64,000 bases of DNA from Schoenoplectus triqueter (taxonomy: Eukaryota > Streptophyta > Magnoliopsida > Poales > Cyperaceae). The stretch is from NCBI GenBank assembly GCA_964058805.1, contig CAXKVV010000004.1:310001-374000 (forward strand), given 5' to 3'. The notes beneath the pieces are model-generated. The model searched no databases, was not told the origin of the DNA, and saw only the letters and a list, made by a program, of their open reading frames with translations. Positions 14,470-63,440 of the stretch are shown here, piece after piece (position 1 is the stretch's first letter; each line of letters starts with the position of its first letter). Both the position numbers and the translations under genes were made by a program.

Positions 14470-15578
14470 GCCTAGCATTATCCACGTAAATATAAAGTTG
14501 CAATCACGTTATGTTATTACCTCGTATTTCCCCTCGGAAAATGCACTTTTTGTTTTCACCAGAAAAGTTATATTGAAAGGTATTAATATTATTATCATAT
14601 ATATAAAAGAGAAGGATCTGATGCTCCAATTTCATTTAATTATTTCTTATTTATATTTCAAATTTTAATACTGAAATATTGATTATAAACCATCGATTTG
14701 TTAATTTTTATAATAGATAAATGTGAATATTTTTTTTTATTTTTAGAGGTTATTTTATGTTAGTTCAAATGGTAATAAAATGAGTGAATCTAGTTAATTA
14801 TGATTGATTATTTTTTATACATTCATGTTGTTATCATTTGTTATAGCATACAATCATTTTCAAAATTTTAAAATTTTATGAGTATATATCTATCATAAAA
14901 AAAATAAAATCTTTTAAATTTAAAATTTAAATATTAAATTTTAAAATAAATTATTAGTATGGATATATCGGATATAACTAAAATTAGCAGCGTGATATCC
15001 CTCTGTTTGAAATCATAATGATAGGGTCCCTAGTCGGTTAAGTCCCTTCGGAAAACCCTATCTTATGGCAAAATGCCAAAAATGTAATACTTTTGAGTTT
15101 ATCAACACTTCTCCTTGTCCTATAAATAATTCCAATTTCATCAGTAAGGCTAAGGGGAGGAAATCACAATTCTCTACTTGGACCTCACATTCGGCCAGTA
15201 ATTATGAAGGATAGCGAATAAAAAAAATGTGAAGTTCCATGAAAAAACAAGTACGTCTCGATCATATATATGTATGATTAAAATATTTTTTCACATAAAA
15301 AGTGATGTGATGTGTCAAAAAATAGAGGGAAGACTGGAAGATACATCATACATTATGCTTAGAGCATAGTACTCGTAAGATAGATCATAAAGAAATGCAG
15401 TGTTATATCATGAATTCATGATATGTCACTTCAAGATGTGATTTGATATATGTATGACATTTTATGTGATGTCCTGCATGTTTAATGTTGGCTACGTTTA
15501 ATCATGATTTTTTTTTTTAATTTTATCTTTTATTTGTATGTTTTGATGTAGTCACGTGCCGTATTACATGATGTATTG
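14470..15578. other. Intergenic AT-rich stretch
   Basis: No gene or delimited element was identified. Near 15360-15500 the sequence is rich in ATGTGATGT/ATGACAT-like words that recur beyond the adjacent hAT-like element (16370-16500), suggesting that element inserted into an older repeat made of these words. Confidence 0.35.
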
Positions 15579-16345
15579 TAGTGTATTAAAATCGGGACGG
15601 GTCGGGTCGGGTCGGGACGGGTTATGGCGGGTCGGCGGGTTTTGACGGGACGGGTCGGGACGGGTCAACGGGTTACGGCGGGGCGGGTTAGCACGGGTCC
15701 AATTCGGGGGGTTTGGCCGCGACCCGTCCTAGACCCGTCGGGTTGGACGGGTCGGCGGGTCGGGACGGGGCGGGTCCAACGCCGGGGCGGGTCGGGACGG
15801 GTGGGACGGGTCGGCGGGTCAAAATTTTTTTTTTTTTTTTAAATTCTGAAAAATCCAAATAAATTCTAAAAAAATCCGAAAAAATAAAAAATAAACACTA
15901 AAAATATTAAAAAAAATAAAACTTTTATTTTTTTCTGATTTTTTCCGATTTTTTTTGAATTTTTTTGAATTTTTTTGAATTTTTTTGAATTACAGCGGGT
16001 TTAACGGGTCGGACGGGTCGGGTTGGACGGGTAAAGTGGGTCGGGTCGGACGGGTTTTATTCCCGGGTTTCCCGGGTTTTATTCCCGGGTTTCCCGGGTC
16101 GGGTCGGGGCGGGTCGGGCACGGGTTATCCCGGGTTTGGCGGGTCGGGTCGGGTCGGGACGGGTCTAAAACGGGTCGGGTCTAAGACGGGTTTTTTTCAA
16201 ATTTTTTTGCCCGCGCCCGTGCTAGACCCGTCGGTTCTAACGGGTCACGGGTCCGACGGGTTTGAGCACGGGACGGGTCGGGGCGGGTCGCGGCCACGGG
16301 TCGGACGGGTCGGGTCTGACCCGGTCGGGTATTTTTAATACACTA
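15579..16345. mobile_element. hAT-like non-autonomous element, 767 bp, filled with GGGTCGGG/GGGACGGG words
   Basis: The left terminus is TAGTGTATTAAAATCGGG and the right terminus, read on the other strand, is TAGTGTATTAAAAATACCCG. A perfect 8-bp target duplication ATGTATTG flanks it (15571-15578 and 16346-16353). Inside each end lies an array of degenerate GGGTCGGG, GGGACGGG and GGGCGGG words, separated by an AT-rich core (15825-15990) with repeats of GAATTTTTTT. GC content of the arrays is far above the surroundings. No transposase is present, and open frames across the arrays are artefacts. hAT assignment rests on the 8-bp duplication and the terminal repeat; the word arrays may be transposase-binding subterminal repeats (inference). 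Confidence 0.85.
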
Positions 16346-16742
16346 ATGTATTGTAACGTTTTTAGACAAATTTATATGACATGACATGCTAATTTTAGTT
16401 AACAAGAGACATCATGTGAAAGGACATGACATGCAACACATGAGACACATCATATATTAAACACGGATCGTGACATTTCGTGATATGCTATGTCATTCCA
16501 CAACATGAGTAATTACAATGTGTCATTTTTAGAACTTTAATAACAGAAAAAAATCATTTTTATGATGTATAAAAAAGTTGTAGTAAAATTTTTTTGACAT
16601 ATATCTGTTATATGAAAAGAAGTATTAAAAAAAATACTCCGCTATGCTCACAAATGTACACTTTTTCCCCTTTACTTTGAATGTTATTTCCGAAATTTTT
16701 ATATATAAATAAAATTAAAATTAAAATTAAATATTGAGATAA

Positions 16743-17060
16743 ATTATAGATAAAATTCGAAATCTACACTTCACGGACTTAGCACCTACATGGAGTGCTT
16801 TCACTCCACGAGACTACCACCCACGTGAAGTGAGAGCACTCCACGTTTTGCCACCAACGTGGAGTCAATTTTCTTTATTCAGTTCAATGTGAGAGACATA
16901 GAGGAGAAAAATAAAATAAAATTTAAAATTCAGTCACGCTACGTGAGTGACAGTAACGTAGAGTATTTTCACTCCATATTGATGACAGTCTCGTAAAGTG
17001 AAAGCATACTCCACGTGAGTGTTAAGTCTATGAATTATAGATCCTGAATTTTATCTATCA
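16743..17060. mobile_element. Probable Mutator-type MITE with CTCCACGT words
   Basis: AGATAAAATTCGAAATCTA near the left and its inverted counterpart TAGATCCTGAATTTTATCT near the right define inverted ends. Between them are repeated words (CTTTCACTCCACG, GCACTCCACGT, ACGTGGAGTC) in both orientations, so the transcript could fold on itself. Outer borders and target duplication are uncertain; similarity may extend to about 16690 and 17078. Confidence 0.5.
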
Positions 17061-17379
17061 TTTCGGTGTTATTTACCATCGTTCTGCATCTCTGGTTATA
17101 TCCAGGCGTTGTAAGGCACTAACTATCAGCGTGCATACCACACTTCCACACCGTGGAAGATCACTAGCTAAGCTTGCAGAATGTCCTTACATTTCAACAT
17201 AATTTTCTTTTGCAGTATATTTCTGCTCATTTTCGCGAGGACGATGGTTACAATATGTTGACATTTTTATGTGAATTAGTGAATTTCACTGTAGTCTTTT
17301 TGCAGTTCAAAAAGTACATTTCCAGCTCTCCATATATTATTTTTTCTAAGACAACAAATGTATCATAACTTTTACTCTA

Positions 17380-17920
17380 GCTATCGGATTGATTTATACG
17401 GTTCAGATTTAGATGCAGGAGTTGATACATATCTTTGAGAACCCTTCGGACCTTAATGTCGGATATGAACTGGATTTGAAAAGAATTTTTATTATTTTTT
17501 ATTTTTTTTAGATTTTTTAATTATAACTAAAGTACAACACAAAATATTTAAAAAATAAAACAAATTTATGACAATAAATGTAGAGAACTATTTTTGTTAA
17601 ATATTTTGTGATTTTTAAATAAAATTAGAACATAAGAGTTTAAAAAATATCGACTTTAAAAAGAACTTAAGAGTTTAAAAAATACCGAATTTGATAAAGA
17701 CAGAATCAGATTTGTTAAGTGTCGAGTTTGATAAAAATCGGATCGGATTTAAAATACGAATTTAATAAAAACCGGACCGAATTTATTAAATCCGATCCTT
17801 TTTAAATCTGAAACTTACAAGAGAAAATAGTTGGACCGAATTAGAAAGGGGTCGGATAAGAACTGAATTTGTCAACGAAAAGACTGAATTTAAATGTTCG
17901 GTCTTGTAGATTATGTCTAA
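17380..17920. repeat. Degenerate word-array remnant (GGATCGGATTT / ACTGAATTT words)
   Basis: Words such as AATCGGATCGGATTTAA, AAACCGGACCGAATTTA and AAATCCGATCC recur in both orientations. This resembles the GC-rich arrays found in the delimited hAT-like elements, but no terminal repeat or target duplication could be matched here. Confidence 0.35.
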
Positions 17921-18143
17921 CGCAGAGGATGTGATTTTCCAGAAACCTCCCACTGTCTGGAAAGTCCGATTACCGCTGCTTTTGTGGTATTAAATGATAC
18001 GAAGTTGTTCAAGGAGCTAAACGCGAGTACATGCACAGGATGTTTATGTACGAAAAGCTGCGTCTATTCTCACCTGGCTGCCAGCCAACACTCGGGTTCA
18101 CAATTCACAATCATCCTGAATGGCCATAGCCTCTGCTAATATG

Positions 18144-18481
18144 CAGTTTTTAGTAATAATAAGTTTTATTAAATTAATATTATTAAAAATAAGTGTGAGA
18201 AACGTAAAATTTCAAATATACGAATGACAGCGTGCCACTGGCAATGACGCGTTTTAAACGCGCCACTGGCAGTGACGCGTTTTAAACGCGCCACTGGCAG
18301 TGGCGCGTTTGCTTCTTATATATACAAAACGCGCAGCGTCTCTCCATCTCACTTGCGCGGGATTTGAACGAAACGCGCCACTGACAGTGGCGCGCTGCCA
18401 TTTATATATTTAAAATTGTACGTTTCTCACTCTTAGTTTTAATAATATTAATTTAATAAAATTTATTATTACTAAAAACTG
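18144..18481. mobile_element. Mutator-type MITE, 338 bp, with perfect 9-bp target duplication
   Basis: The termini are CAGTTTTTAGTAATAATAA and its near-perfect inverse over about 100 bp. The 9-mer GCTAATATG flanks both sides (18135-18143 and 18482-18490). The core has tandem CGCGCCACTGGCAGTGACGC palindromes joined by TTTTAAA, and a perfect GCGCCACTGACAGTGGCGC near the right end. It has no coding capacity. It is the better preserved relative of the element at 8768-9149. As RNA it would form a long hairpin. Confidence 0.88.
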
Positions 18482-18911: not shown

Positions 18912-19016
18912 CATTCAAGTGCGCTAAGTGTTATATTTGCCCATTAAAACCTCGGTTCTCAAGTGCGCTAAGTGTTATATTTACCCATGAAAACCTCGGT
19001 TCTCAAGTGCGCAGTG
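18912..19016. repeat. Tandem repeat of about 53 bp, two full copies and a partial one
   Basis: CAAGTGCGCTAAGTGTTATA followed by TTTGCCCATTAAAACCTCGG is repeated head to tail, and a third copy breaks off after CTCAAGTGCGCA. Confidence 0.7.
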
Positions 19017-20246: not shown

Positions 20247-20974
20247 TCAATTTGAAAATGAGCTACCAACACTAACAGGTGCATTGGAGCCACAACTGCT
20301 TACAGTTACTGAGAAAGTCAGTTGTGGAGAGACAGACTCAGTACTGGACGACATGTCAGACTGGATATCTCCACCGGCGGTTGTGTAGGGAAGGTTGACT
20401 GGAAAGATTGGCATGTCTGATAGAGCTGAGAGGGACGATGTTGAAGGGGTGTAGCTGAGGGTTCCCATTGGATGATCAAACTTACAAGTGGGCCCATATT
20501 TGCAGACCCCATGTTTTGCATAGTAGTTGCAAGGCTGAGCACCCTGGCACAATAAGCGTGGAGTTAACAGTACAAAAAAATATATATACAGTAATGAACT
20601 AATGATCCGTTTGGTACAAATCCTGTTCAATAGTAGTAATGATTTTTCCACGTAACTTACTACTCTGCAATATGGAAATGCCAAAATATAAAAAGGAAAA
20701 TAAGGAAATGCCCAGTGGTAACCAACCAGCATGGTAACCCATGACCTACCAAACTTCTATAGATATTAGTCACCTTATGATGCAGAATCAACATAGAAAA
20801 AACAATAAAACAAGAAAGAATCAACAATAAAAATTAAATAAGTGAATGATTAGTACTTAACTACTGAGTACAAACTACCACATATCTTGTACAGCAGTTT
20901 TTATGTTAAAGAGTGCAAGCGGAAATAAACCTTCCAGGAATATGAAAAATCAAAGCTTTTCTGAGAGAGGGAGG

Positions 20975-21005
<31 letters not shown>

Positions 21006-23858
21006 GTACCTGTCGAAGAGGGAGTCCGATAGGACTCAGCACACAATTAGTTTTCTGGAGGTTCAGGTCAGATGGCACTGGATGATGGTATCGACAACTT
21101 GTCCCATATTTGCAATAACCTTTGTTGATGAAATGATGGCACTCAGCCTGTCCTGGCCTCTGTGGCAAGAGTGAGAATTGATCTCTTGGACCACTGCATG
21201 CAGGTCCCATCAGGGACGGCACCACAGGCAGAGGAGGTACTTCATAAGGATTATGAGGTACAGGTGGAGGTACTTGCTGTTGCAAGTTATAAAATGGTGT
21301 TGCTTGTACCAGCTGCTGACCTGATGATGCTAATAAAGGACTGACGGATCCCTATTTACAATTAAAAACCTTGTTGACAGAATATATTGAAAACTTGCTC
21401 ACATTTCTTCGCATCAGATTTTCTTTCTTTAGGTACTTATTATGTTCAACAGAGGATCTTCAAGGAGTTGGGCAAAATAGGGATTTAGTCATACAATACA
21501 GCAACCAGAGAGCACCATTACCAACATTCATTTAGCAAGATATGTAGAAAAGATTGACCAAAATTAAAGTTACAAGGAATAATTGTATTGTGTGTAAACA
21601 AATATAAATGAAAGAAATGAAAATTTAAAAAAAATGTACCAGATAGGGGTTCCATCCTGGAGCTGGCACCACACCTGGTGGCATCAACATAGCACCATAA
21701 TTTCTCGACAGTACAGGATATCTCCCAACATTTAAATTCATGTTCATACTTGGCAGAGGTGGGTATAGGACTTGTGTGATGACAGATGATGACTGAACAG
21801 CTGAATAGTTCATTGGTAATGATGCTGAAGATGGGGCCTGGCTTGTCAGAGCTTTCTCTGGATGGTGGAACTTGCATGCTGAGTTATATTTGCAGTTGCC
21901 TGTTTTCAGATAGTAGTTGCACTCTTTCTCCCCCTGGTATAAAATTTCTATTGTCAATTGCCACAACTTTATGGGAACCTTTTGCAATACATTTAATATT
22001 GGGTTAAATCATTACACATCACATAGTAATATATCAACATTAACTTTTCTTCAAATCTTACAACATTCAGCAAAACCAACCTTTTATCTTCTACATATTA
22101 CAATTAAGAAGATAGGGCGTGTTGGTTTGACTATGATTATCCTAATTTCAGAATTTTGATACCATGATTTCAGTTTAGAATGGCAAAAAAATGATGGTTC
22201 ATTGGAGAATCAGCCTTTGGTCTGGTGGTTAAGGTTGCCATCTGTGGAAGGTCCCAAGTTTGAAACCTGGTTTGGGGGATCCATTGTGCGTTGAAAGCCG
22301 GGTTCCATGATCCCCCATCTTCATCTCAAAGAAAGAGAAATGAAAATGAATGATTCAAGGGTATTTATCATTTCCTGTGAAATATTTAACCGTCTTAATA
22401 GAAATTTGTGGTTAACATTGGATGGGAGCTAATGGTTGTGAAATTGTAGTTCGAGGCTGTTGAACATAAATTGAATGTTATTTCCAGGATTAAATAAAAT
22501 GTTGGCAAGCAGCCTAGCTGTATGTATTAAAAATGTTCTGGAAATAGAGTGAACTTCAACCTTTCTTGAATAACAAAAATACAGCTACAAGCCAGACTGA
22601 TACTTGTATGCAGCAAGGTGCATATTTAATTAAAATTCAACATATACGCAAACCGAACAACAAAATTACTGCTAAATTTCATTAGTGCTATGCTCACAAA
22701 TAACCACCTGTACAGCAAAGCAAAGGAAATTATCCAGTAGCAAACATATCAAAGAGTTTATACAAAACTAACCGGTCTAAGTGGAAATCCAAAACTATTT
22801 AATGTGACGAGCTGTTGAGCTGGTCGGCTATCTTGCTTTGGGTGGTTATACTTGCATGCAGACCCGAACTTGCAAGTCCCGTTTTTCATATAGAACTATA
22901 ATTAACGGTTAAATGCCAGCATCAATAAAATGTTGCATGAGAATGAGATAAAACATTAGATTTTAAAAATAAAAAACAAAAACCTCACAGACAGGTTGCC
23001 CTGGTCGCTCAGGAAATTCTTCAGCTCCAGATAGCTTCAGCAATGGGAAAATCATTCAACAATAGTCAGACGCTTCAAATGTGTTCTCTCATAATTAAAA
23101 ATATAAGTTTTCTTATGAAGCCACTGTGCCAATCATACAACTTTAATTTGGTCAACTTGAACAGAATTTGTTTTATTAAGGATATCATTGAGGTTAAAAA
23201 AATAATTTGAACATTGAGAATTAACAGGTGTAATGCCTACAAGACAGTAATAAATGAATATGCACTTCCTTACCGACAAGTTACTGCCACGTGGATGATT
23301 GTACCGGCACTTGTCACCATAGCCACAAGATCCATTACGAAGATAATAAACACAATCAGGCTCACCAGGTCGCTCTGGTAAATTGGATGCACCATCTCCT
23401 ATTTCCAGCCTCCTCATTGGTTCTATTAAGTGCAAACAAAGAACTAAGTGCATTTCACATGGACTCGAATCATTCCAAAAGAACAGGTCAAAACAGAGAA
23501 CAACTCAGTCAAATTTTACAATCACAGCTCAAGTAACACAACAAGAACCTAATGCACTGATTATTAGTCAAAACAAAAATAATTTTGAAGTCTGAGTATC
23601 CGCGTTGATTCGACCGAAAGAAAAGATTATAAATTCGAAAAGAAACTTGCATCAATTGAAAACTAGCAACAGATTCCATAAACCTCATATAAAACCTAAC
23701 TGCTGACAGCCCCAAATCGACACTATCTAACAATTCCTAAAGAAATAAAAGAGCAACTTGAAAGGAAACCACACAAGAAGAGTACCTTCAAGTGCAGTAT
23801 TAGGGCCCCCATGGCTGCCCTCTATTGCGACCGTCTTGCGGACGGTCGGTTGCTCCAT
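20247..23858 (-). CDS. Zinc finger CCCH domain-containing protein with five CCCH fingers, 442 aa
   Basis: Seven exons on the minus strand join in phase: 23858-23786, 23422-23274, 23034-22984, 22895-22773, 21933-21640, 21351-21010 and 20543-20247 (stop). Five fingers of spacing C-x8-C-x5-C-x3-H are at residues 48-67, 90-109, 137-156, 301-320 and 349-368; finger 2 is split by an intron after its first Cys. Each is preceded by the ERPGEPDC / ERPGQPVC / GEKEC / QRPGQAEC type lead. This five-finger layout (three N-terminal, two C-terminal, Pro-rich spacer) is that of the plant ZFN1-like CCCH family, whose members bind RNA or DNA and are usually nuclear. The first in-frame ATG ([14 protein letters not shown]) was chosen; upstream codons in frame have no ATG. 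The tail after finger 5 is Ser-rich. All key Cys and His are intact, so the gene appears functional. The 5' UTR holds a CT microsatellite, and intron 4 contains a SINE. Confidence 0.92.
20963..21004. repeat. GA microsatellite in the last intron of the CCCH gene
   Basis: A run of GA dinucleotides, preceded by GGGA tetramers, abuts the splice donor at 21009 on the minus strand (CT-repeat in the transcript). It lies only a few bases inside the intron. Confidence 0.85.
22212..22335 (+). mobile_element. tRNA-derived SINE inside an intron of the CCCH gene
   Basis: An A box-like segment TGGTCTGGTGGTTAAG (about 22218-22233) and a B box-like AGTTTGAAACC (22257-22267, consensus GGTTCGANNCC) lie about 24 bp apart, as in RNA polymerase III promoters. 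The 3' part (GGGGGATCC ... ATGATCCCCCATC) is unlike tRNA, followed by an A-rich tail near 22328-22350. It is oriented opposite to the host gene, in the intron between the exons ending at 22773 and starting at 21933. It is not a functional tRNA because it lacks the acceptor stem and a clear anticodon arm. Confidence 0.68.
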
Positions 23859-23969
23859 GACCCCTCTAAAAGCTTCGCGAAACTTCGGGATATGCGAACG
23901 ATCGCAGTGCAATGTCGATTTAGTACTATAGAAAGGAAGAGAGAACCCCTCTATACCAGTGCGATTCGA

Positions 23970-30893: not shown

Positions 30894-32578
30894 ATTTATC
30901 TGCGCTTTGGTTCTCTTGGTGAAGGTAACAAAAAAATTGTGAACAAGAATTAGTACATACAGAATGATGAAATATTACAGAACTTGATTGCCATCCCCTA
31001 TTTATAGTGGGCTTGACATTAATTATATGCAATTAATTAACACGAGTATCACAAGAAATCGATACGCCGATGCTGGAATCATATGCCATGTGTATGGTTT
31101 CTCTGTGAGACGTGTCTTGCCCATTCGTTGCAAAGAGTACCGGAGATTTCCCCTAGTTGAATTTATTAATAATAAGTGCATAGACCGCAAAAAGGACAAA
31201 GTTTGTAGAAAAATGTTACTTAAAAACATAATATAACATAATATAACATAATATAACACAATATTGAATTGTTGGCTTTAATATAATACTTCTTTGAATG
31301 ATTTAATTATACCTTTTCTTTTAAATATGAGATGAGGATCATGTCAATATTCTCAGTAATCTTATCTGCAAGGAATTGCCGACTTTAATATGTAGTTAAT
31401 ATTGTATATAACATGGTATGATGGTACTCTAGAGACATGAAATGTACAAACTACTGTACTATTTATATATGCTTAGTTAAATATAATTGTAACTAAAATC
31501 CAGGTAAAAAAATTAAATAGAACAAAAAACATCAGTAACTATTTACTTTGATAATAATTTCCAAATAATAAAAAAAACTTCTACAAACATAATCTACACT
31601 TATAAATTGATTATGTTCAATTTTCAACCAATTCGAGTGTCGTTTCATAATTAATCAATGACTGTCAAAATTGCATAACATTTTCAACAGTTCAAATTAA
31701 ATTAACGAGCTTTGATGTAATATTAAGGATACTGAAATTTTATAAAATTTGAAATACAATAAATCTATAAGTTCAAAAATATGTTTGCAAAAGTTTTCTT
31801 TTTTTCTTTTTTAATTTATTTGAAAAAATGTTATCAAGGTTGTAATAATAATAATCACTATTATCAAGGGTCCTCACCATCAAAATATTAGGTACAATTC
31901 ATTATTGTTCTCAGGCATAAACGGAACTAAAACACAATTTAGGGACAAAGAAGGGAGCTTTCAACTTTCTGCGTCAAGGAGAAGAGTTTAATATATTTAA
32001 TTCAATCAAGGAATTGTACTCTGGTTTACCTTGTGTGTTCTCTTTTGTAATGGCCCGTTGAAACTTACCTAGCTAGCCGCTTGTCATTATAGTAATAAAT
32101 TCTTGATTTGAAAAATGTTCGATGAGATTAAAAATTTGACATTTAGATATAATATGGATATAATTTCAAAATAGTTTGTTTTATATAATATAAATAAAAA
32201 ATATATTATAACGATAAAATATTTAAAATATAATAAAAATATAAAATTCTATTTAAAATTATATATAATGTGTTTCTTTTCAAATAATTTACGAATAAAA
32301 AAATTTGACCCAAAAAAAGTATTATATATTAAACTGAGGAATTATTTATGAAATATTTGACTATTGATAAAAATAAATTATTCACAAATAATTCACGAAT
32401 CATGTGATTATATCCAGCGAGGTGTCGCCTGCGCATACCTTTCCAAAAGCTAAATATATTTCTCATGTGACTATATCCAGTAAAATCAGAAATGACTGAT
32501 AGGAAGTGTCTGAAAAAAATTCAGTACGAGGAATTTTTATTTTTTTCAATGAATGGAGAGGCGTTCGGGTGCCGGGGC
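30894..32578. other. Upstream flank of the SWEET gene with MITE remnant
   Basis: The first ~500 bp are the likely SWEET promoter. A short ATAATATAAC tandem lies at 31229-31262. The segment about 31560-31830 resembles the interior of the MITE at 46319-46711 (ATAAATTGATTATGTTCAA, AATTCGAGTGTCGTTTCAT) and is a partial copy. No gene is supported. Confidence 0.4.
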
Positions 32579-33983
32579 TAGTGTTCTAAATTCGTGCCGT
32601 GTCGGACCGTGTCGTGTTCGGACACGTCGTGCTTTCGTGTCGTACCGTGCCGTGTCTTTTATTATTTTATTTTTTTTCGTGTCGTGCCGTGCCGTGCCCA
32701 AAAATGATAGAAGGAGGCACGACACGGATAAGGCACGCCGTGTCTAGCGTGTCGTGCCTTAATCATGTCGTGCTTTATTCGTGTTGTGTCTAATCGGAAC
32801 CGTGACCAACCGTGTCGTTTCCATGTGTCTTAATCGTGCTAAACGTGTCTTACCGTGTCTTATCGGAACCGTGACCAACGATGGTGATGGGGGGTATTTC
32901 GCGCCAATATTTAAGGAACTTTACCTTCATCGGTTCCAATGAATACCATAAAATGTCTTCTTCTGTTAGTTTGGTTAGTTGGCATTGATACCAATCAGAA
33001 ATGATTACAAGCTCCTCCAACAGTGCGATCGATATCGGTGTGTAAGATGCAAAAAGACTTACTGTCGCGGTATAAAAAATTTCTAAGAACGGAACCATTA
33101 GCTCCAATGTGCGTCACTCATTTTGTGTTAGAAGTTACTCTTGTCCCTGTTGAGTGCTACTTAGATGACGCTCCAAGGCTGGTCTAAGATGAGATGTTTT
33201 CCTCAACAACTGGTATGTGTTGTTCCAGCGAGTGTCGACATCCCAAGGGATCTTTGTTTTTTGAATACCCATAGACCTGCACAACTTTGCAAAATACTAT
33301 TTTTTTCGGATGCTCGAATCAACATACCTTAGAGCATCCTTGTACTTACCGATCAAATTCTGAATTGGGTCGACTTCCATACCAGCTTTCATAATTAAGT
33401 TTAGAATACGACATGCACATTTTGTGTGGAAAATGCACCATTCATTATGGGTTTGAGAATATTTGTTAAAAGTCTAATTGCGGCATTACAATTACTAGCA
33501 TTATCGAAACTAATAGAAATTTTTTTATCTCGACATTGATATTCCTCAATGATACTTAACACAAACCTAAAAATTGATTATGCATCATGCGGATATTCCA
33601 GTTCTCGAAAAGCAAGTAATCTTTTATTTAAAAACTATGTCCCAAAGTTGATATCATCAGTGATCCAATAAGCAGTAACAGTGCAATATGACTTATCATG
33701 TTTACCAGCCGATCAAATATCATAAGTTAATGACACTTTATATTTTGCATTTTTAAATTCATCATACAAATCTCCCCGTTCAGTTTCGTGTCGTGCCTGG
33801 TACCCGTGCCGTTCCGTATCGTGTCTAACACCTTAACCATGCCGGGCATGACACGGTTAAGACACGGCCACGGAACAGTACCGTTCCCGTTCCCGTACCG
33901 TGCCTTAACCCGTTCCGTTTCCAGCCATGTTTGTACCGTTCCGTACCGTTTCCGGCCACGGCGTGTCTAAATTTAGAACACTA
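32579..33983 (-). mobile_element. hAT element, 1405 bp, with transposase remnants and CGTGTCGTGCC word arrays
   Basis: Left terminus TAGTGTTCTAAATTCGTGCC; right terminus reads TAGTGTTCTAAATTTAGACA on the other strand. A perfect 8-bp target duplication GCCGGGGC flanks it (32571-32578 and 33984-33991). Arrays of CGTGTCGTGCC, CCGTGCCGTG and CGTACCGT words occupy about 32590-32880 and 33785-33965. The middle holds a broken hAT transposase on the minus strand. The 14-bp terminal repeat is nearly the same as that of the element at 15579-16345 (TAGTGTATTAAAAT), so they probably belong to one family with different internal words. Confidence 0.9.
32860..33790 (-). pseudogene. Decayed hAT-family transposase
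   Basis: Reading the minus strand from high to low coordinates, blocks of a hAT (RNase H-like, BED-finger group) transposase appear in shifting frames: YCTVTAYWITDDINF, RLLAFRELEYPHD, IEEYQCRDKKISISFDNASN with NAAIRLL, then WDVDTRWNNTYQLL, and finally MVPFLEIFYTATVSLFASYT to MKVKFLKYWREIP. The SFDNASN and DTRWNSTY-like signatures are typical of the family. Frameshifts and stops occur between blocks, the N-terminal BED finger is absent and the C-terminal hATC dimerisation domain is missing, as the reading runs into the terminal word array after KYWREIP. This copy cannot make active transposase. Confidence 0.8.
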
Positions 33984-33991
33984 GCCGGGGC

Positions 33992-34309: not shown

Positions 34310-34700
34310 CGGGTCAAAAAATCTTGATCTGAATCCGAACCCGATTAAATTCGAGTCAAAAAATCTCGATCCATACCCGACCCGACAGGTCACGGGTCGA
34401 CCCGACCAGATTCATGTAAAATAATTAAATATTTCTTAATTATTTTATATAATTTTAAGCAATAAAATATTGATTATTTTATAATTAATCTTAATTAGTA
34501 TATAATTAGTGTATATTTAAGTTTTAATTAGTATTAAATCATAAAATTACTTTAAAAAATATAATTAATCTGATCGGGTCGGGTCGGATTGACCCGAACC
34601 CGATCCGATCTAATTCGGATCAAAAAAATTAAACCAGTACCCGATCCATTTATTTTCGGGTCGTATCGGGTCAGGTCAAAAATTAAGACCCCTAATCTTA
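34310..34700. repeat. Orphan word-array element (CCCGACCCG / GATCCGATC words), one end recognisable
   Basis: Words ACCCGACCCGACAGGTC, GATCGGGTCGGGTCGG and ACCCGATCCGATCTAATTC flank an AT core. The right terminus on the reverse strand reads TTAGGGGTCTTAATTTTTG, a form typical of hAT-type ends. The left terminus and an 8-bp duplication could not be matched, so this copy is probably truncated on the left. Confidence 0.55.
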
Positions 34701-39611: not shown

Positions 39612-40200
39612 AAATGATATTTAAATACCTAGAACACATATCTAAATACCTAAATAAAAAATCTAAATATCTAGATATTATACTTAAATACTCAGAACAC
39701 ATATCTAAATACCCAGAACACATATCTAAATACCCAGAACATAACTATAAATATCTAAATAAGAAATCTAAATACATAGATATTATACTTAAATACTCAT
39801 AACACATATCTAAATACTCAAAACAAATATCTAAATACCCAGAATATATCTATAAATACCTAAATAAAAAATCTAAATACATAAATACGTAAGAACAGAT
39901 ATCTAAATACCCAAGTAAGAAATCTAAATACCTAGATATTATATCTAAATTCCCAAAACACATATCTAAATATATAAGTAAGAAATCTAAATACCTAAAT
40001 AATATATGTAACTACCCAAGACATATATCTAAATACCCAGAACACATATCTAAATACATAAAGAATAAATCTAAATACCTAGAATATATATCTAAATACT
40101 CAGGACAAATATCTAAACACCCAGAACACATATCTAAATACCCAGAACACATATCTAAATACCTAAGTATAAAATATAAACACCTAAATATTTTTATCTA
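39612..40200. repeat. Minisatellite of about 21 bp units (CCCAGAACACATATCTAAATA)
   Basis: The unit CAGAACACATATCTAAATAC is repeated with variants (CTAAATAAAAAATCTAAATAC, ATATTATACTTAAATACTC), forming a higher-order pattern where 'CTAGATATTATA' type units recur every few basic units. The 62-codon open frame inside it (39614-39802) is an artefact of the repeat. Confidence 0.85.
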
Positions 40201-41440: not shown

Positions 41441-42314
41441 TAAAGAGTAGAGATGTAGAGATGCTAAATCATAAATTTTAAGCCATTTTTTTCTGTTACT
41501 ATTTTAATTCTTTACTCATTCGCTACATAATGATTTTTTCCATTTGAACACTTGGTAAAGATTAAATTCAAATAAATTCAGTTTTTTAACAATCAAGTTG
41601 ATTACAATTCAGTTAAGTTGGATTGTAAAAAATAATAGTAGTGAAAATAATTATACATTGGCTTTCATTATCGGGTTTGGTTTCACATATATTTAACGAA
41701 CTGTTTGATTTCATTAATTTAAATGTGATCTCCTATATGGACTTTCTTTTTTTGCCCCTTCAGATTTTTCACTTGCATATTTTTTTCATTTTAGTTAATT
41801 TATAAGTTATGAGCTTGATCCCTATTTTCATTTTTTTTTAATAAATAGAAGGAACCCCTAAACCAATAAAATAAACAAGAATAGGCATGCAGGCGCGCAC
41901 TATCATAATTAAGTAAGAGATTAACCTAAGATATTTTTGGAATCTAGGAGTTTATGCCGCCACTAATGAAAGCAGTTTTTCAATTATGGGGCAAAGTTTA
42001 TTAATTGCTTTCTTGTCGCATGTGCCTATGTGTCATGTAGCGCTGCAGTCTGGACTCTGAAGAGCACAAGTAAATGCTTCCTTTTTAGTTTTAGTAAATT
42101 TGCGCTTGGCAGATTAGAGAGGATATTATTATTAAATACATGAAGATATTAGACAGGTATTCACGGTTATCCCTACTCCACAATGAGAGTATAATCATAT
42201 ATACAAGCAATTTCTCTTATAAATTTTTAGATAACGAACCCAAGTGGCTAACATGTTCTATAACATATTCTTATTGATTTACTTATGTGTATAATTGTAT
42301 AAATGAGTTGTGAT

Positions 42315-43525
42315 TAGGGCTGTTATTCGAGCTAACTCGAGCGAGTTCATACCAACTCGAACTCAGATCGCAAGTTACATGAGTCGAGCTGACTCAAATT
42401 ATATACCTTCATCCGAGCTATATACTGAACTCAAACTCAGCTCAGTCCTAACTCGAACCAGCTCATAACTCGTGATTTTGACTCGCGGTTCATTTATAAG
42501 TAATAACTTCAGAAAAATATTTGTAGAGTAAAAGAAAATCGTGACTCTGTTTAGCATCTTAGGTAAAGTGAAATAAAAGCATTCTGATAAAAACAAAACA
42601 TTAATTAGTAAATATCAATACTGGCACCTCACGAACTGCAATCTCTTATGTATTAATTCCTGATTTTGCTGAGAACAATTGAAGAATCATAAATGACTAA
42701 AACTAAATTACAATTGGAACTAAAATAGAGATTAAAACAACAATCTAAATCAACAGAGTGACAAACTAACATTATAACAAAAGTCCAAAATACTAAAATA
42801 ATCACAGATACAATATAACCAGCATAATAGTGTTTAATGCTAACATACTTCAAAATTCAAAATACTAAAATCATATTGATAGTAACCAGACTCCAATTTA
42901 AGCACTAAGCCAACAATTTATGCGATTTGCTAACTGCTAGTCTGTGGATCTATGCTAAGTCGAAAGTCAGGAGCTTGCGCAATGGCTGAGGGAGGAGAAA
43001 GGTGTACTACTGACTGTCTATGCTAATTGCTGAGTCAAGAGTCGCAAGGTGCACCGCTGGTGTTGACTGTCTATGGCTCTACGCTGACTGTTCATGCAAT
43101 GGCCGAGAGAGGAGAAAAATGGCCTGAGCTGGATCAAGAGTCGAGAGATGGAGCCGGTGAGAGACTCTAAGTGGAGACACGACAAAATCATGGAGAATCG
43201 GTGGATCTGGAGAGAACTTCAGAGAGAGAGAGAGAAGAGAGTTAGAGAGTTAGGGCGGTTGATGAGAGAGAAGAGGTCATTATGAACTTTAGATCAATTT
43301 GGGGTTCAAGGTGGGCTAAATTAGCATCGCAAGAATTGCCACAGACACAAAGTGCGTATTGCACAACACAAATATTTTTTGCAAGTTTACGAGTCATCGA
43401 GCGAGTTGACCATGACTCATACTCGGATAAAAAGTTATGCGAGCCAGCCAACTCGAGTCAAACTCGAGTTATGACGAGTTAAAATCCGAACGAGTTACGA
43501 GTCACGAGTTATTTGTCCGGTCCTA
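42315..43525. mobile_element. hAT-like non-autonomous element, 1211 bp, with ACTCGAGT/GAGCTCG words
   Basis: Left terminus TAGGGCTGTTATTCGAGC; right terminus on the other strand TAGGACCGGACAAATAACTC. A perfect 8-bp target duplication GTTGTGAT flanks it (42307-42314 and 43526-43533). Within each end are degenerate words ACTCGAGC, AACTCGAACTC, GAGTCGAGCTG and, on the right, GCGAGTTG, CTCGAGTTATGACGAG. The middle has no transposase; it includes a diverged tandem of GCTGACTGTCTATGCT-type units (42990-43110) and a GA-rich segment. Open frames near 43094-43482 look accidental. Confidence 0.82.
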
Positions 43526-43924
43526 GTTGTGATGTATTTTCATCATGAGAGAAAATAACTTTGACAACGGTTATTGATTAAGTTTAACAACGATTATTGA
43601 ACCATTAGTAAAGGTGTTGTCAGCAAAACTATTGGAAACCGTTGCCAAATATGTAGTGACAACAAAACATGACGTAGGTTTTGGCACTGGTTCTTTATAG
43701 GAACCGTTGTTAAATATGATTTTAACAACGGTTTTAAGATGCTAACCGTTCTGAAAGATAATTTTTGCAACGGTTATAAGTTGTAACCGTTGCCAAATGT
43801 GCTTTTTTTAATTTAAATATTTTTTCACAACGGTTTTCTATTAGAATCGTTGTTAAATATATTTTAAAAAAATAGTTGTTTCTCGCTGCTAGCCCAAATT
43901 GCTAGCATATATTTTCAAATTATA

Positions 43925-44470
43925 ATTCATATATATATGCAACAAACATATATTTTAGAAAATAAATTTATATATGCATCACACATACATATAAATCACA
44001 ATCAATTAATATATACATCACACATACATATATCATAAATAATTAACATATACATCACACATGCATCACAAACAATTAACATATACATCACAAACAATTA
44101 ACATATACACCATACATGCATCACAATCAATTTATATATACATCACACACCTACATCACAAATAACTCACATATACATCACACATGCATCACAAACAATT
44201 AACATATACATCACAAACAATTAACATATACACCATACATGCATCACAAATAATTCATATATGCATCACACACCTGCACCACAAATAATTCACATATACA
44301 TCACACATACATCACAAACAATTAACATATACATCACACACCTGCATCACAAAACAATTGAGAGATATGTACAATATCACACACGCATCATAAATTAACA
44401 TGCATCACACACATGCATCAAAAATTAACAATTAACATATATAATCATCTAAATATATCAAAGTATCCAT
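43925..44470. repeat. Minisatellite inside the CACTA element
   Basis: Units built of ACATATACATCACACATGCA and TCACAAACAATTAAC, about 30-35 bp, occur more than ten times with higher-order duplication (for example the pair near 44040-44120 and 44165-44245). Confidence 0.85.
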
Positions 44471-44677
44471 GTATATCTCAAAATATAAAAGTTATCCATA
44501 TCACAATACCAAAGTACCCATAACACAGTTAGTAATTACATATTACAACACCAAATTTTGTCGATCTTTGTCTTTCCCGGATGACTCAGTGCCCTCTAAA
44601 CTCTCTCCACCCTGGTTGTAGTATGTTCGGATTCTATCTGTGCCCCAGTCCAGGGATTGGCGAGCTAAATTCTCAGT

Positions 44678-45340
44678 CTAAAACTTTTCCTGCCGGTTTT
44701 GCAAAAACTGATAGTCATTTTCAAGAGGGGTTGACAGGTCAATGGCGGTCATGTCGATGAAAGTGATGAAAACCTGCTCCCAGAAACCCCCTACGTGCAC
44801 CAACACTGATTTCGGTATCATCCGCCCATCATGACAGTCCACCACTGCGTATATTGCCATTCTATCCTGCCCATTAAAAGATACGTCATCGAGGAAGACC
44901 GGTTCATCGAAGTCTTCGAGAATCCTTATTGCCACCACCCTAGACCACAGTCTTAGCGGTATGTTCTTTAGGTGGACTATCATTCGGACGACAACTGACC
45001 TTGGTCGTTCAGGCTCCCCTTCAAACTTCTCAACAGTGACTCCGTAGGTGGGGCCCCACTCCCGCCTCTCCACAATAATGTCCCGTGGGGAGAGTTTGTT
45101 CGGTATGTCTATGATAAAATCCCTATCTGTGAATCTCACCACCGGAAGTACCTATTCTGAGGCTCCATATCGCCGTGCAATGTACCATCGAATGCGGTTT
45201 GTGGATCGATCGGTGCTGGTGTGTCGATATGTTACTAATATTGCTCGGTCCCAGGACGCGCCTTCATCCAGCAGATATGACCGATCTAGGTACAATGTCG
45301 AGAGGTTTCGCTGTCGTGGAGCGTTAATGTAGCGCTCCAT
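44678..45340 (-). pseudogene. ORF carried by CACTA element, ~220 aa, broken by one stop
   Basis: From ATG at 45340 the frame reads MERYINAPRQRNLSTLYLDR and on to RWYIARRYGASE, then an in-frame TAG (45152-45154), and continues without shift VLPVVRFTDRDFIIDIPN ... VHLKNIPLRLWSRVVAIRIL, GQDRMAIYAVVDCHD, ending QFLQNRQEKF. The LKNIPLRLWS-type segment recalls plant DUF4283-like proteins often found in transposons, but the link is tentative. Codon structure is intact over the whole span except the single TAG, so it decayed recently or the stop is read around. I assign no function. Confidence 0.5.
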
Positions 45341-45923
45341 CGTTTTGAGAAAGTTATGGTAAAAGAGGTAAGAAATTTCAACAAAACTTAAGAAAGGGAA
45401 GAGGATCAAAGTGGAGATCAACAACAAACTTGAAGAAAAGTGATCGAAGAGGCAGCACCAACTTGAATAGTGTCGTGAGAGAAAAGCCCTAGAGAGCCAT
45501 AGACAGAGAAGAGATAGAAAAAACGAAGCGGGAAGGAAAAGAGATAGAAAAAACGAAGCGGCGCAAATCTATAGGGTTTTGAGAATACATGTTTAACAAG
45601 GGTTCTTTAAAGGAATCGTTGTTAAAGACCTTATTTAGCAATGAGTTTTTGTGGCAACCGTTGTTAAAGTATTTCGCAATGGTTCTTCAGAGGAACCGTT
45701 GTTAAATGATTTCGCAACGGTTTATCACAAAAACCGTTGTTAAATAGGAGAGAGAAAAAAAGTAGATGTTACGGTTTATAATTTTAACAATGTCTTTTGT
45801 TAGAAAAACGTTATAAAATATGTTCTTCAATATTTCAAAATTATCACTCAACTCTTTTAGCAACAATTAGTACTTAAAACCGTTATTGAATAGGTGTTGT
45901 CGAAAGTCCATTATGTTGTAGTG

Positions 45924-46318
45924 TTTTTTTTAAAACAAAGATGGAGTTAATTAGTTCATTCAACTTTAATAAATGTTTATAAAGAATTTTTATTTAAGTT
46001 TCAAATTTATGACATTTTACAAGAAAAATATTTTTTATACTAAATGAATGACTGATTCTTGATATTGAAGTTAGAATTTAAAAAAAAAATCTTGTTTAAT
46101 TGGCGAAAGCAACGTAACCTCCATGCATATTAAATGTTTGCATGATAAAAATTTTGAATTTTCATACACACCGAGATTTTGGGGAAAAAAGAAGTGCCCT
46201 TCGTTCACTCTAAGTCCAACTATGTTCATTGCATTCCATGGTTGCTCTGGTCATGAGCATGCGCCTACTTTCAGCAAATTTATACATCGACTTAAATAGA
46301 TTTAGTTTGTTTAATTTA
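45924..46318. other. Short intergenic stretch
   Basis: AT-rich with no supported feature. Confidence 0.35.
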
Positions 46319-53066: not shown

Positions 53067-53182
53067 TCACTATTTATTACTCAAAAAATCTTCGAGGCAG
53101 CGGAACATCATGGTGGAGGTCGCTTTTTATATGTTCTAGAGAAAGTCATTTCTTTGGTAGTGAATTTATCAGCATCATGTCT

Positions 53183-53330
53183 AGGGATGGCAATGGGCCG
53201 GATCAGACCGGGTTTATATCAAATTCGGAGTCCGGCTCGTCTTTTAAAATTTTCGGCCCGGCCTATCCGATCCTTACCTTCAGACCTAAATTTGATGATC
53301 CGGCACTCCCATAATACTTGACGGGCCTAA
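53183..53330. repeat. Left end of a truncated hAT-like word-array element
   Basis: TAGGGATGGCAATGGGCCGG followed by GATCAGACCGGG, TCGGCCCGGCCTATCCGATC and related words. This terminus resembles common plant hAT-type ends. A right terminus could not be found, and the ATT microsatellite begins immediately after. Confidence 0.5.
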
Positions 53331-53332
53331 AT

Positions 53333-53347
53333 TTAATAATAATAATA

Positions 53348-59486: not shown

Positions 59487-59745
59487 AGGGATCCATTCAC
59501 AATGGGTTATTTTGACAATCTTGATAATGGACTTTTAAATAAAAATAAAAATAATTCAAAATAGAAAAAAATACATAGATATGTTCTTTTACTTTAGATC
59601 GATAGTGTTTTAAATTTCATGTAATTTCATTATCATTTGGTAGTTCACAAAGACCATCATGATTTTATACAATTTGTAACGGTATTTGACGAATTATCAA
59701 ATAATAATAAAATTGTACTAAATTTGAAACACTACTAATCTAATG
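59487..59745. mobile_element. Partial MITE of the GGGAGGGATC family (left end and palindromic centre)
   Basis: Begins GGGAGGGATCCATTCACAAT then GGGTTATTTTGACAATCTTG, continuing through ATCGATAGTG and the central inverted repeat, but the right terminus is missing after about 59745. Confidence 0.65.
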
Positions 59746-61408
59746 ACATACATTTTGCTCTTTACAAAATATCTAATGACATACATTTTGAAACAAATCT
59801 TGCCCAAATCTTCAGTTGGGAACAAACAAAATATCTAATTAATGACATATATTTTGCTCAAATCTTCAGTTGGGAACCAAAATCAAAAGTATCCGACCAA
59901 GTATTTTCATCAGAACTTCCAATGACCTTAGAATGCATGTGTGGTTCTCCTTTTTTTTTCCTAAGAAAATCGTTCGAAATTTTTTTGCTCCCCCCTTCCG
60001 CCACTCCAATAAAACATTCCCTGCCAAGTTAAACGTAAATTATGTATAATTTTTTTCTGATAAAGTGTGAACTCTACAAAAATGTAAATTTACATGTGGT
60101 TCAAAACTTGGACCTGCTGTGTATTTACTCCAACGAACCAAGTGATTGCATTTTCTTTTCACAGGAATTCCTATGCTTTTCTCAACATTTTCTTTCTAAA
60201 ACCAGGCTCGCTGGCCCCACAATGCACAATCATAAAGCTCTAGATTCACTTTGCTAACTACCTTAAATAGCTTGCTTTCTGCTTAATCTACAATCATTAA
60301 AGCTAATTTGAGTAATTAACAAAAACAAAAACATCCTGGTTGCATCATGGGCACAATAGTTAAAGAATTTATTTGTACAACTTCTCTGGTCTGCCATTAT
60401 GAGCACCACGAGTCATTCTAGCCATAATTATTATTCAAATCACCTCTTACTGGCCCATTTTCTCTCCAGTCCCCATGAAACTGGAGACATACTTTGAAAA
60501 ATAAAGAAGGCCTGATAATCAGTAGGTGATAATGGAGATCAGAAGCTATGTAACCTAATGGAGACAAGATGAACCATGACATGATGCATCAAAATTTCCT
60601 GATTTTGTGGTGGGGATTGATTCACAAGTGAGAGACAGGCTCCAGTTATTGCCTCGCTCATTCAGGACAAGGGGTTACATGTTTCAATCAACTGATATCA
60701 AGTCTGGTAAAATGTATGGCGTGATTTTGGGTACCATGCTATTTGCAAGAAATTTGGTTTCTTACTGTTATTACCTATTTGGGTAGCAAAAGGCTTTTTA
60801 TGTACAGATTAGTGGGAAAAAAAACTGATAATTTCGTTCAAAATTCAGAAAAGAAAAAGCTCGAGAGATTTAATGTTTACAGATTAGTGAAAAAATACTG
60901 ATAATTTCATTGAAAATTCAGAAAAGAAAAGGCTCGACAGATTTTCTCTATCCGTCGTTAAATAGTTACCCATAAATTTGCAATAAAGTATAAATCGATC
61001 TTGAGCTTGCTGTTGACACCTCAGGGCCCAAAAAGGCCCAAAAATTAGGTGGAAGGCATAATGATGACTTGTTACCAAGCATATAGGCTTTCTATGTGCG
61101 CACCCAATTTGCCTTTGTTTAAGCTTACTTTTCCTCTGTGGCTTAACCAGAACCCCACTTTAATCTCTCTTTGTATTTTAATAAACCTCTAGGCTTAGTC
61201 ATGAACCAATTCCACCTTTGCATTTCATTAATCCCACCTTTTGTATTTTATTAAACACTTCTTCTAAACTTCACAACAGAATTTTGAAGAATCCGATCTC
61301 GCTGTAGCAGGACCCAACTCTTTTTGTTGCGGGTCGATTTGAAGAATCCAATGAAGATAATTAGGACGGCCCCAGATATCAGTGATTCACAATAATCCAG
61401 AGCCCATA
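59746..61408. other. Intergenic stretch, no gene supported
   Basis: Contains a tandem of CTAATGACATACATTTTG (59739-59790) and AAATATCTAATTAATGACAT (59828) and a direct repeat of AAAAATACTGATAATTTCAT / AAACTGATAATTTCGTTCAA with AAATTCAGAAAAGAAAA (60820-60930). No RNA gene or reliable coding frame was seen. Confidence 0.35.
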
Positions 61409-61530
61409 ACCAGTGACGCAAACACTAAAAAATAAAGTTTTTTTTTTGTAGTGAAAAATAAAATAAAAATTTATCTAGAAACTTTATTTCCTTGGTTCGA
61501 ACAATCTCCACCGATCGTTTTTTATTCTGC
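61409..61530. mobile_element. Decayed relative of the 12511-12680 MITE
   Basis: Matches its middle and right side: AAAAAATAAAGTT, TAGTGAAAAATAAA, CTTTATTTCCTTGG, CACCGATCGTTT and the ending CTGCACCTG in place of CCGCCCCTG. Starts CAGTGACGCAAAC. Confidence 0.55.
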
Positions 61531-62536
61531 ACCTGTTCATAATTGTATCACTGTGTAATTGAGGGGGGCGCAGGGATTGCAAAAGGTGATCCATAGAAGG
61601 CATCGCCACTAAAGATATCTAAATAAAAATACCAACTTTAAATGGCTGGAGAAAAAAAGGTTCAGCAACTGTTCTCTTTCTGTACAAAAGGTCTACTAAC
61701 AGACTAGTGCCTCTTAGCTTTGGAATTTAAATGAGAAGGTAGAGTTACACATGTAGAGATTTTATCCTCCAAAGAAGCTTTTAGTATCATTCTTATTTGT
61801 TGTTAGCTGTCAAATAATGCATGAAAGAATATCAACTCTTAAAAGATATCCACATCTTTTACTCCAAATAAAAAAAAAACAATCTTAAAATGCATGTATG
61901 TCCGTTGAAAGTGCACGTTTTTTCTAGTGTTAAATCAACCCTTTATTCTCCCCTCTAAAAGCAAACTTTCTTCTCAGTCCTTATTTTCGCATCTACAAAT
62001 GAATAATGTACTAATGTGTTTTTTCCATCACTGCAGTGTCTTTTTTTTTTGGCATTATCAAAGCATCAATCTCTAATAATTAGACTGCACATATGTCAAA
62101 ATATTGTTTAAAGCGTCCCTATGAGCTATATAGTATATGGTGTTATTCTCAAAGTTCTAAACGAATAAAAAGTTTTAGAGAAGAGATTCAGTGTCACTAA
62201 TTTTAGTGGTATATGAAACTTATCTTTTAAAGTTTAATACTTAAATTTTGAATCCAAATTATTGATCTTATTTATTTTTATGATAAATATATGCTTATAA
62301 AATTTTATGATTTTTAGAGATCATTTCATACTAGATCAAATGATAATAAAATGAATGCATAAAAATAAATTAATCATAGTTAATTAGGTTTACTCATTTT
62401 ATTATCATTTGATCTAATATGATATGATAGTTAAAAATTAGTAAAATTCTTTTATATTGGAAAATAATTATTTGTAATTATATGTTCGACTCCATGAAAG
62501 GTTAAATTATCCTCAACCTTAACAAAGTATCTGTCA

Positions 62537-62568
62537 CCCCCCCCCCCCCCCCCAAAAAAAAAAAAAAA
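62537..62568. repeat. Poly-C(17) followed by poly-A(15)
   Basis: Adjacent homopolymers followed by ACAACAACAACAG. Rare in natural AT-rich DNA and hard to sequence; length is uncertain. Confidence 0.85.
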
Positions 62569-63224
62569 CAACAACAACAGAAGAAGATTTTAATCAGGTT
62601 ACAGAGAGTGAAAGAATGTTGTCGACCATTAATTGGTGGCCTTTTATATGGTGTATTGTGTTTTAATTGTGGTCCATGAATCAAGATAAAATCTCTAGTC
62701 ACTACTCACAAATCAATTAACGCTGAGAACCTATCTTTAATCTGACAAAAACAATGCTCTCTATATAAAACACACGTTCGAAATACGAATGAAATTCTTT
62801 ATATATAATTAAAAAAATTCTAACTTAGACTACTAGTTTACTAAAAAGAGAAATCCAAGTTACTTAACCTTTATGATAGTAATTAAAAATGTTTAAATAA
62901 ACAAATGCATTGGAGAGAGCGAACTATATTATCCTTTTACTTTTTTTGGGTAGCTATAAGATTTTTCTGGTGGTAAAGCCTAAAACAGGGAGCATGTTTC
63001 AATTTGATCTCTCAAGCAGGACCCTGGAACTACTTATTTCTAGAATTTCCTGCACTTTTGCTCCACTTCTTATTTCTAGAAACGATTTTTCAATATGAAA
63101 AGTGGAGGAATAAAGTTTAAAAAATATATATATAATTATTACAAGGGAAATGTGTTTGATCTCTCTAAGTAACATTTGATTTTCCATCAAGCCGCCTTTT
63201 ATAATTGAGATAACATATCTAATC

Positions 63225-63440
63225 TGTACATATTTGAATCGGACTCAATTTAATTTTTTTAAAAAGTTAAATTGATTTGATTTTATCTAAACTTGATTTA
63301 ATATGATCCGACTTGAGATCAAATAATCTGTAATTCAATCAAAATTAATATAAAATATAACAAAAAAATTAACATTTAAATTAATCTGATCCGATCTGAC
63401 TTTGATTCGACCCGCCCGATTACCATCTCTACCTCAAGGT
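63225..63440. repeat. Orphan word-array element, right end recognisable
   Basis: GAATCGGACTCAATTTAA on the left and ATCTGATCCGATCTGAC, TTCGACCCGCCCGATTACC on the right, with an AT middle. The right terminus on the reverse strand is TAGAGATGGTAATCGGGCGG, again a common hAT-type end. The left terminus was not found. Confidence 0.5.

Follow-up and report, generated by a model that had tools for sequence, protein, structure and literature searches.

What are the dense arrays of short words at the ends of hAT transposons for, and how does a whole array come to carry a different word in closely related elements? These questions are raised by a stretch of 64,000 nucleotides from Schoenoplectus triqueter (Cyperaceae; assembly GCA_964058805.1, contig CAXKVV010000004.1, positions 310,001 to 374,000; hereafter the window), in which three small hAT elements, here called E1, E2 and E3, have ends filled with the words CGGGT, CGTGY and CGAGY, respectively. 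Judging from sequence comparisons within the window and across the 82-Mb assembly, of whose contig C4 the window is part and to which all genome-wide searches refer, these arrays are probably subterminal binding sites of each element's own hAT transposase, which would turn over across the whole array as lineages diverge.

The assignment of E1, E2 and E3 to the hAT superfamily follows from their boundaries and from the proteins of their relatives. An exact 8-bp target-site duplication (TSD) flanks all three elements (Table 1) and 10 of the 11 further delimited copies of E2, the remaining one, C272, having a single mismatch. Terminal inverted repeats of the TAGNG/CAGNG type are present in E1 and E2, whose inverted tips agree without mismatch over 11 positions, whereas the tips of E3 are imperfect, with 5/11 mismatches. 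The two halves of E1 each match, at 98%, the two ends of C340:3549-7130, a 3.6-kb element that holds a Dimer_Tnp_hAT domain (78.3 bits), and E1 therefore looks like an internal-deletion derivative. The same domain occurs in C949 and C79, among the transposase-bearing relatives of E2, and in C1396, where the ends flanking the transposase domain match those of E3; a target duplication was sought at C1396 and not found, and a Pfam search of E2's own interior returned no match. An RNase-H fold catalytic domain was found in C300 and C22, while the E2 relative C1389 gave only a DUF659 match below the cut-off.

The words are concentrated within these elements. Judged by the remainder of the window, 0.21 copies of CGGGTC would be expected in E1, which holds 36; for CGTGTC in E2 the figures are 0.16 expected and 17 found, and for AACTCG in E3 0.19 and 12. 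When word arrays were scored in 300-bp windows, with ten Markov-3 shuffles as the null (top score 13.7), E1 reached 59.7 and the two ends of E2 40.0 and 19.7; the left end of E3 scored 14.7, and its right end passed within a merged segment. In the gene-bearing E2-type copies C949 and C79, for each of which one end was identified, 22 and 14 words fall in one terminal 250-bp bin, compared with 0-4 in each other bin. An earlier reading of the window (the sequence-only reading) had named equal abundance outside the elements as a refutation, and given the low outside density and this terminal concentration it is not refuted. It had also described the arrays as dense in CpG, which holds for E1 and E2, with observed/expected ratios of 1.70 and 1.33 against 0.79 for the window, but not for E3 (0.87).

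The three families are set apart by the third letter of the word. When the CGNG words of the end regions are counted on both strands, G stands third in 64/76 cases in E1, T in 34/40 in E2 and A in 23/28 in E3, while across the whole window the counts are A164 G160 T172 C92. T likewise dominates in all 11 other E2-type elements and A in both E3-type relatives counted (elements C999, C52b and C949b are excluded from these counts and from those of strand bias). Placed side by side without gaps, the opening units of E1 (TAGTGTATTAAAATCGGGACGGGTCGGG) and those of an E2-type end (TAGTGTTCTAAAATCGTGCCGTGTCGTG) share the same register; inside the words, the differences fall on the third base and the variable fifth. 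As each family's array is near-uniform and yet different from those of its relatives, the pattern is not one expected from independent point changes and goes beyond what common descent predicts.

Within the E2 family, this same base is nearly invariant. A comparison of 13 E2 left ends shows a change in 1 of 280 cells at the third base of CGTGY and its complement, whereas A/T columns outside words and A/T runs have changed in 61 of 611 (p 1e-9), and the other four word positions in 25/225, 17/228, 21/228 and 50/229 cells (7.5-22%). That a base which differs between families should be so nearly fixed within one of them goes beyond common descent alone, as does the better preservation of word columns between two E2 subfamily consensuses, which are identical at 95/114 word columns and at 64/99 other columns (p 0.0025; the subfamily consensus was built from 4/9 other E2-type ends), although the choice of words on the consensus creates a bias toward conserved columns. 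This bias, however, applies equally to the remaining four positions of the word. Together with the CGGG/CGTG/CGAG single-letter difference, this near-invariance supports the array-wide turnover between relatives that the sequence-only reading had proposed.

In E1 and E2, the words also have a direction and a period. Forward words outnumber reverse ones by 25:2 at one end of E1 and by 27:7 at the other, and a forward bias at both ends was found in 12 of the 12 E2-type elements counted, so that an earlier description of the words as lying on both strands was wrong for these elements; in the three E3-type elements the ratios are 5:5, 7:6 and 4:2 at the left ends and 10:3, 12:3 and 5:0 at the right ends, E3 itself having 5:5 and 10:3. 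Because the tips of E1 and E2 are inverted while the words point one way, each tip meets its array in a different orientation. A 5-bp period is present in six E1/E2-type ends (lag-5 z 5.1-7.7, measured against base shuffles rather than dinucleotide shuffles), with lags 10 and 15 raised in five of the six, the right end of E2 being the exception; E1 has a lag-1 signal as well (z 5.2 and 4.6). Genome-wide, the number of matches to a pattern and to its reversed form was 3308:21 for CGGGTCGGGNCGGGTC, 184:39 for the CGTGYC triplet, 47:0 for the CGGTCC-type tip and 158:1 for the E1 tip; the CGGGTCGGGNCGGGTC matches serve here as a genome-wide total and do not enter the comparison of clades.

A lack of correlation between words and transposase clades was the other refutation named in the sequence-only reading; in this genome the two are correlated. 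Transposase relatives were ranked genome-wide with the 78-79-residue domain from the E1-, E2- and E3-lineage transposases, and the domain set comprises the 150 that were scored among 254 candidates (49 at least 82% identical to the domain of E1, 90 below 82%, and 11 of the E2 clade). A tip of the E1 type was assigned to a domain where it lay 300-2500 bp downstream, on the opposite strand, with at most 2 mismatches, the mirror-image placement serving as control; the E1 tip matches used for this were the complete set of 78 with 0-2 mismatches, out of 158 genome-wide. This oriented 3'-end rule replaced a looser 6-kb proximity for E1, the E1 DNA search having scored 40 of 355 candidates. Tips of the E1 type accompany 19/21 domains at 95-100% identity to that of E1, 9/15 at 89-94% and 7/13 at 82-88%; at lower identity the counts are 2/15 (79-81%), 1/24 (74-78%), 2/41 (64-73%) and 0/10 below, and in the E2 clade 0/11. 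The tips are thus found at 35/49 domains at or above 82% and at 5/90 non-E2 domains below it (p 2e-16), against 1/139 in the mirror control.

For E2, arrays of CGTGYC lie within 6 kb of at least 13/16 E2-clade domains and of at least 1/139 others, or, with the C201 cluster counted once, near at least 11/14 and at least 1/139 (p 2e-13), these lower bounds being drawn from 100 of the 184 CGTGYC triplet matches; the lone non-E2 domain with such an array adjoins a separate E2 element at C201. The E2 DNA matches under the 6-kb proximity take in coding sequence and cannot count as independent of the transposase, whereas the CGTGYC pattern matches are independent. Tips of the CGGTCC type stand at 7 domains of 59-74% identity to that of E1, at 0/49 of those at or above 82% and at 0/11 of the E2 clade; C201a, at 66-68% identity, bears the word CGGTC and has TAGAGATTTGCAAACGG as its tips. 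Within the E3 clade, CGAGC is kept by C300 and C240, which are about 90% identical to C1396, and C907 (78%) has CGAAC. Domain distance correlates with word distance over the 16 ends for which both end and domain were available (Mantel r 0.85) and over eight hand-picked clade representatives (r 0.43, p 0.007). In this set, the row for E1 joins the end from the window to the domain of C340, their ends being 98% identical, and the E2 copy of C201 is excluded because its domain is repeated and broken.

Several observations, in addition to the bias in column choice, weigh against the reading of the arrays as transposase-binding sites specific to each lineage. Word and transposase sit in one element, and common descent alone therefore predicts their co-variation; the contrast in CGGTCC-type tips is by itself borderline (p 0.052). 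E1 shares its main word, CGGGT, with C22, whose domain is 46% identical, and CGGGTC/ACCCGA is the main word in C52 and C1843b, elements with other tips, so that a word does not identify a clade. Nor is CG-N-G universal, as the words of C907 and C201a attest; the main word of C656 is TACCC, without CpG, and the words of C63 are weak. E3 has neither the 5-bp period (lag-5 z 1.9 and 0.2) nor a strand bias at its left end. Homogeneity within an element is imperfect, as the outer part of the right end of E2 has CGTTC/CGTAC and some AAACGG. Ends were read for 14 of the 90 non-E2 domains below 82% (5 of the E1 type, 7 of the CGGTCC type, C656, and C1923, which looks identical to C656 over the compared stretch), and for 35 of the 49 domains at or above 82%. 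In C2081, one of the eight best Dimer_Tnp_hAT loci, no tip was seen by eye.

The words might, alternatively, have no role at all, having spread by neutral pentamer slippage and tracking transposases only through sharing an element with them. Linkage of this kind predicts the observed co-variation, and both the 5-bp period in the six E1/E2-type ends and the short-period units reported by TRF in E1 speak for slippage. Yet neutral slippage and hitch-hiking alone leave unexplained why the words are confined to element ends, why change is over tenfold rarer at the third base than at the remaining positions of the word and at the A/T sites outside, and why word columns are better conserved between E2 subfamilies, and we consider this explanation unlikely. 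It also seems quite improbable that the arrays bind host factors, such as silencing, replication or enhancer proteins or methylation readers, and that lineages differ through escape from host recognition. The CpG-rich words of E1 and E2 would suit such a role, as would the inhibition of Ac/Ds transposition by CpG methylation of the element, described in a review (PMC3878927), and the cellular factor that the authors of the Hermes study suspected for the inner end sequence (PMC10368747). However, words read by host proteins would not be expected to track transposase identity so closely, and it is the transposase itself that binds such repeats in Ac, Tag1, Tol2 and Herves (PMC3143072). Furthermore, the 13 E2 left ends show no clear excess decay of CpG, with transitions at 48/687 CpG positions and at 95/837 other C/G positions, a comparison weakened by the toggling fifth base, which the latter figure includes; CpG changes within CGTGY words are mostly transitions (17/25 C>T, 16/17 G>A).

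It could also be that the co-variation is real but that the words are bound by another region of the transposase, the zinc finger having no part in setting the word. The Pfam search of the E1-lineage transposase fragment, which found no zf-BED, favours this explanation and counts, with the observations above, against the preferred one. Nevertheless, a CCHH-spaced segment is visible by eye in the same fragment, the fragment of the E3-clade element C300, which is cut at the locus edge, matches zf-BED with an E value of 0.0011 (19.4 bits, below the cut-off of 20.6), and binding by the BED domain has been shown for Hermes (PMC10368747). We therefore regard binding through another region as very improbable.

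If the arrays are indeed bound by the element's own transposase, each lineage would read its own short word, the three families of the window sharing CG-N-G-Y with a third base that is usually G, T or A, and, by analogy with other hAT elements, the word would be contacted directly by the N-terminal zinc finger. The one-directional, 5-bp phased sites of E1 and E2 would allow the inverted tips to offer differently oriented arrays, comparable to the asymmetric ends of Hermes. A change of word in a lineage would then involve nearly all copies in the array, and this turnover would proceed most simply by the expansion and loss of short pentamer tandems, selected for the word that the transposase reads. 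Birth and loss of tandem pentamers, screened by the transposase, would explain the uniformity, the period and the direction of the words. We infer that slippage or conversion homogenises the arrays, of which slippage may be indicated by the 5-bp period, and selection would be the cause of third-base invariance in E2. Among the clades examined, all but C656 have CpG in their words, which fits the preference of Ac/Ds transposase binding for hemimethylated sites described in a review (PMC3878927); methylation could accordingly be sensed through the CpG of the word.

A bolder version can be put forward only tentatively, as something possible that we would not ourselves wager on: the third base of CG-N-G-Y would act as a one-letter code that names the lineage, an array of some tens of sites would switch in concert with finger specificity, and the fixed CpG would let each version of the word serve as a replication (hemimethylation) switch, as in Ac. 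Sister families would, on such a code, be insulated from cross-mobilisation. Should the arrays be transposase-binding sites as proposed, one genome would hold a natural series of transposase/end pairs one defined letter apart, in which it could be tested how DNA-protein recognition at many sites shifts its specificity without a dead intermediate, and how relatives avoid mobilising each other. Zinc-finger residues could then be tabulated against the bases that they prefer, and a reason for the CpG-rich tips would be at hand.

Several of these features have precedents among known hAT elements. Different hAT transposases have different subterminal motifs (PMC3143072), and hAT zinc-finger domains bind diverse motifs, usually containing CGG or CGC, with matching subterminal motifs in the four hATs tested (PMC8097297). 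The view that arrays so diverse are unusual must therefore be tempered, since different motifs and diverse hAT DNA-binding domains had already been published (PMC3143072, PMC8097297). Like E1-E3, Ac/Ds of maize combine an 8-bp TSD and short tips with several short words that contain CpG and lie no further than about 200 bp from each end, and the Ac word, AAACGG, is bound by Ac transposase (PMC3260210). Unlike Ac/Ds, whose tips are C/TAGGGATGAAA, E1-E3 have other tips and other main words, and their arrays are dense, in E1 and E2 phased at 5 bp and mainly one-directional, and belong to families one letter apart. Tag1 of Arabidopsis (AAACCC / TGACCC) and Herves (CGATTCAT) illustrate, as here, that different hAT elements have different short subterminal motifs (PMC3143072); they are, however, single elements for which binding has been shown, whereas the elements described here are graded relatives within one genome, known from sequence alone.

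The BED domain of Hermes binds short subterminal repeats that mostly point the same way within an end and are asymmetric between ends, as in the present elements, and the zinc-finger domains of several protomers bind repeats at the left end; the Hermes motif, AAGT followed by an AT-rich stretch, is without CpG, unlike the words here (PMC10368747). The CGGBP and hAT-19 proteins come from animals and a fungus and are mostly domesticated, in contrast to the plant elements considered here, and the portion of that study available to us describes no within-genome series of array-wide single-letter changes (PMC8097297). Likewise, searches of open-licence literature brought up no within-genome series of phased, one-directional pentamer arrays differing by one family-defining base.

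Table 1. Coordinates of the hAT elements, their word arrays and the hAT-like tips in the window
Feature	Position	Strand	Basis
E1 left TSD, ATGTATTG	15571..15578	.	exact 8-bp direct repeat
E1, non-autonomous hAT element, 767 bp, tips TAGTGTATTAAAA, word CGGGT	15579..16345	+	TSD, tips, words
E1 left word array, CGGGT inward on + strand	15592..15820 (approximate limits)	+	
E1 right word array, CGGGT still mainly on + strand	15992..16334 (approximate limits)	+	
E1 right TSD	16346..16353	.	exact 8-bp direct repeat
E2 left TSD, GCCGGGGC	32571..32578	.	exact 8-bp direct repeat
E2, defective hAT element, 1405 bp, tips TAGTGTTCTAAATT, word CGTGY	32579..33983	+	matches transposase-bearing copies
E2 left word array, CGTGT/CGTGC	32593..32880 (approximate limits)	+	
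E2 right word array, CGTTC/CGTAC outermost, CGTGY further in	33781..33970 (approximate limits)	+	
E2 right TSD	33984..33991	.	exact 8-bp direct repeat
Truncated hAT element, TAGGGGT.. type tip (by eye), word ACCCGA/CGGGTC	34326..34694	-	relative of C52:343251-343698
E3 left TSD, GTTGTGAT	42307..42314	.	exact 8-bp direct repeat
E3, hAT element, 1211 bp, tips TAGGGCTGTTA / TAGGACCGGAC, word CGAGY	42315..43525	+	TSD, tips, words
E3 right TSD	43526..43533	.	exact 8-bp direct repeat
hAT-like tip TAGGGATGGCAATGGGCC with CCGG words	53182..53345	+	by eye; below scan null, not significant alone
hAT-like tip TAGAGATGGTAATCGGGCGGG with TCCGAT/TCTGAT words	63190..63431	-	by eye; below scan null, not significant alone

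In addition to the three delimited elements, which their exact TSDs confirm, the sequence-only reading had counted at least five truncated ones, of which it placed five. Only the array at 34.3 kb passes the scan (score 24.2), and it is 81.6% identical over 353 bp to the complete element C52:343251-343698; the arrays at 17.4, 51.8, 53.2 and 63.2 kb do not rise above the Markov-3 null in the scan. The use of all five small arrays as equal evidence was rejected, as four of them do not exceed that null. The scan also responds to sequences other than hAT elements: 11 segments of the window exceed its null in all, among them several in other repeats and one (21.0 kb, score 14.7) in the region of a CCCH zinc-finger protein gene. 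This gene occupies about 20250-23900 on the minus strand, with zf-CCCH above the cut-off in two open frames and its further extent judged by eye.

Some members of the E2 family have unusual structures. The E2-type elements C449:2792-3808 and C1897:12100-13138 have unlike tips, TAGTGTTCTAA and TAGGGAATCAA, and each is flanked by an exact 8-bp TSD; they are perhaps an end-swapped form. At C201:194649-195699, the C-terminal part of the E2 transposase is present three times in direct order, about 424 bp apart, near an end of the CGGTC type. In C345:1139-15854, the E2 tip pattern is matched, with three mismatches, by six identical sequences at a spacing of exactly 2,939 bp, which suggests a long tandem repeat.

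Other repeats of the window also carry short words. A MULE-like element of 338 bp at 18144-18481 has an exact 9-bp TSD (GCTAATATG), tips matching at 16/16 positions, and its own CAGTGGC/AACGCG word array. Adjoining E3, at about 43550-45925, AACCGTTG words flank a DUF4283-like open reading frame (PF14111, 18.9 bits, cut-off 27.2), and a minus-strand tip reads CACTACAACATAATG by eye; this is a probable CACTA-type remnant. At 16701-17050, a short array of six copies of ACTCCA exceeds the scan null and lies in no delimited element, and at 39617-40165 there is a degenerate 21-bp tandem array (ATATCTAAATACCTAGAACAC) of about 26 copies. Elsewhere in the genome, C236:8847-9089 is a hAT-like element of 243 bp with an exact TSD (ATCCGCAC), a CpG observed/expected ratio of 2.82, and the word pair CGAAAC/CGTTTC.

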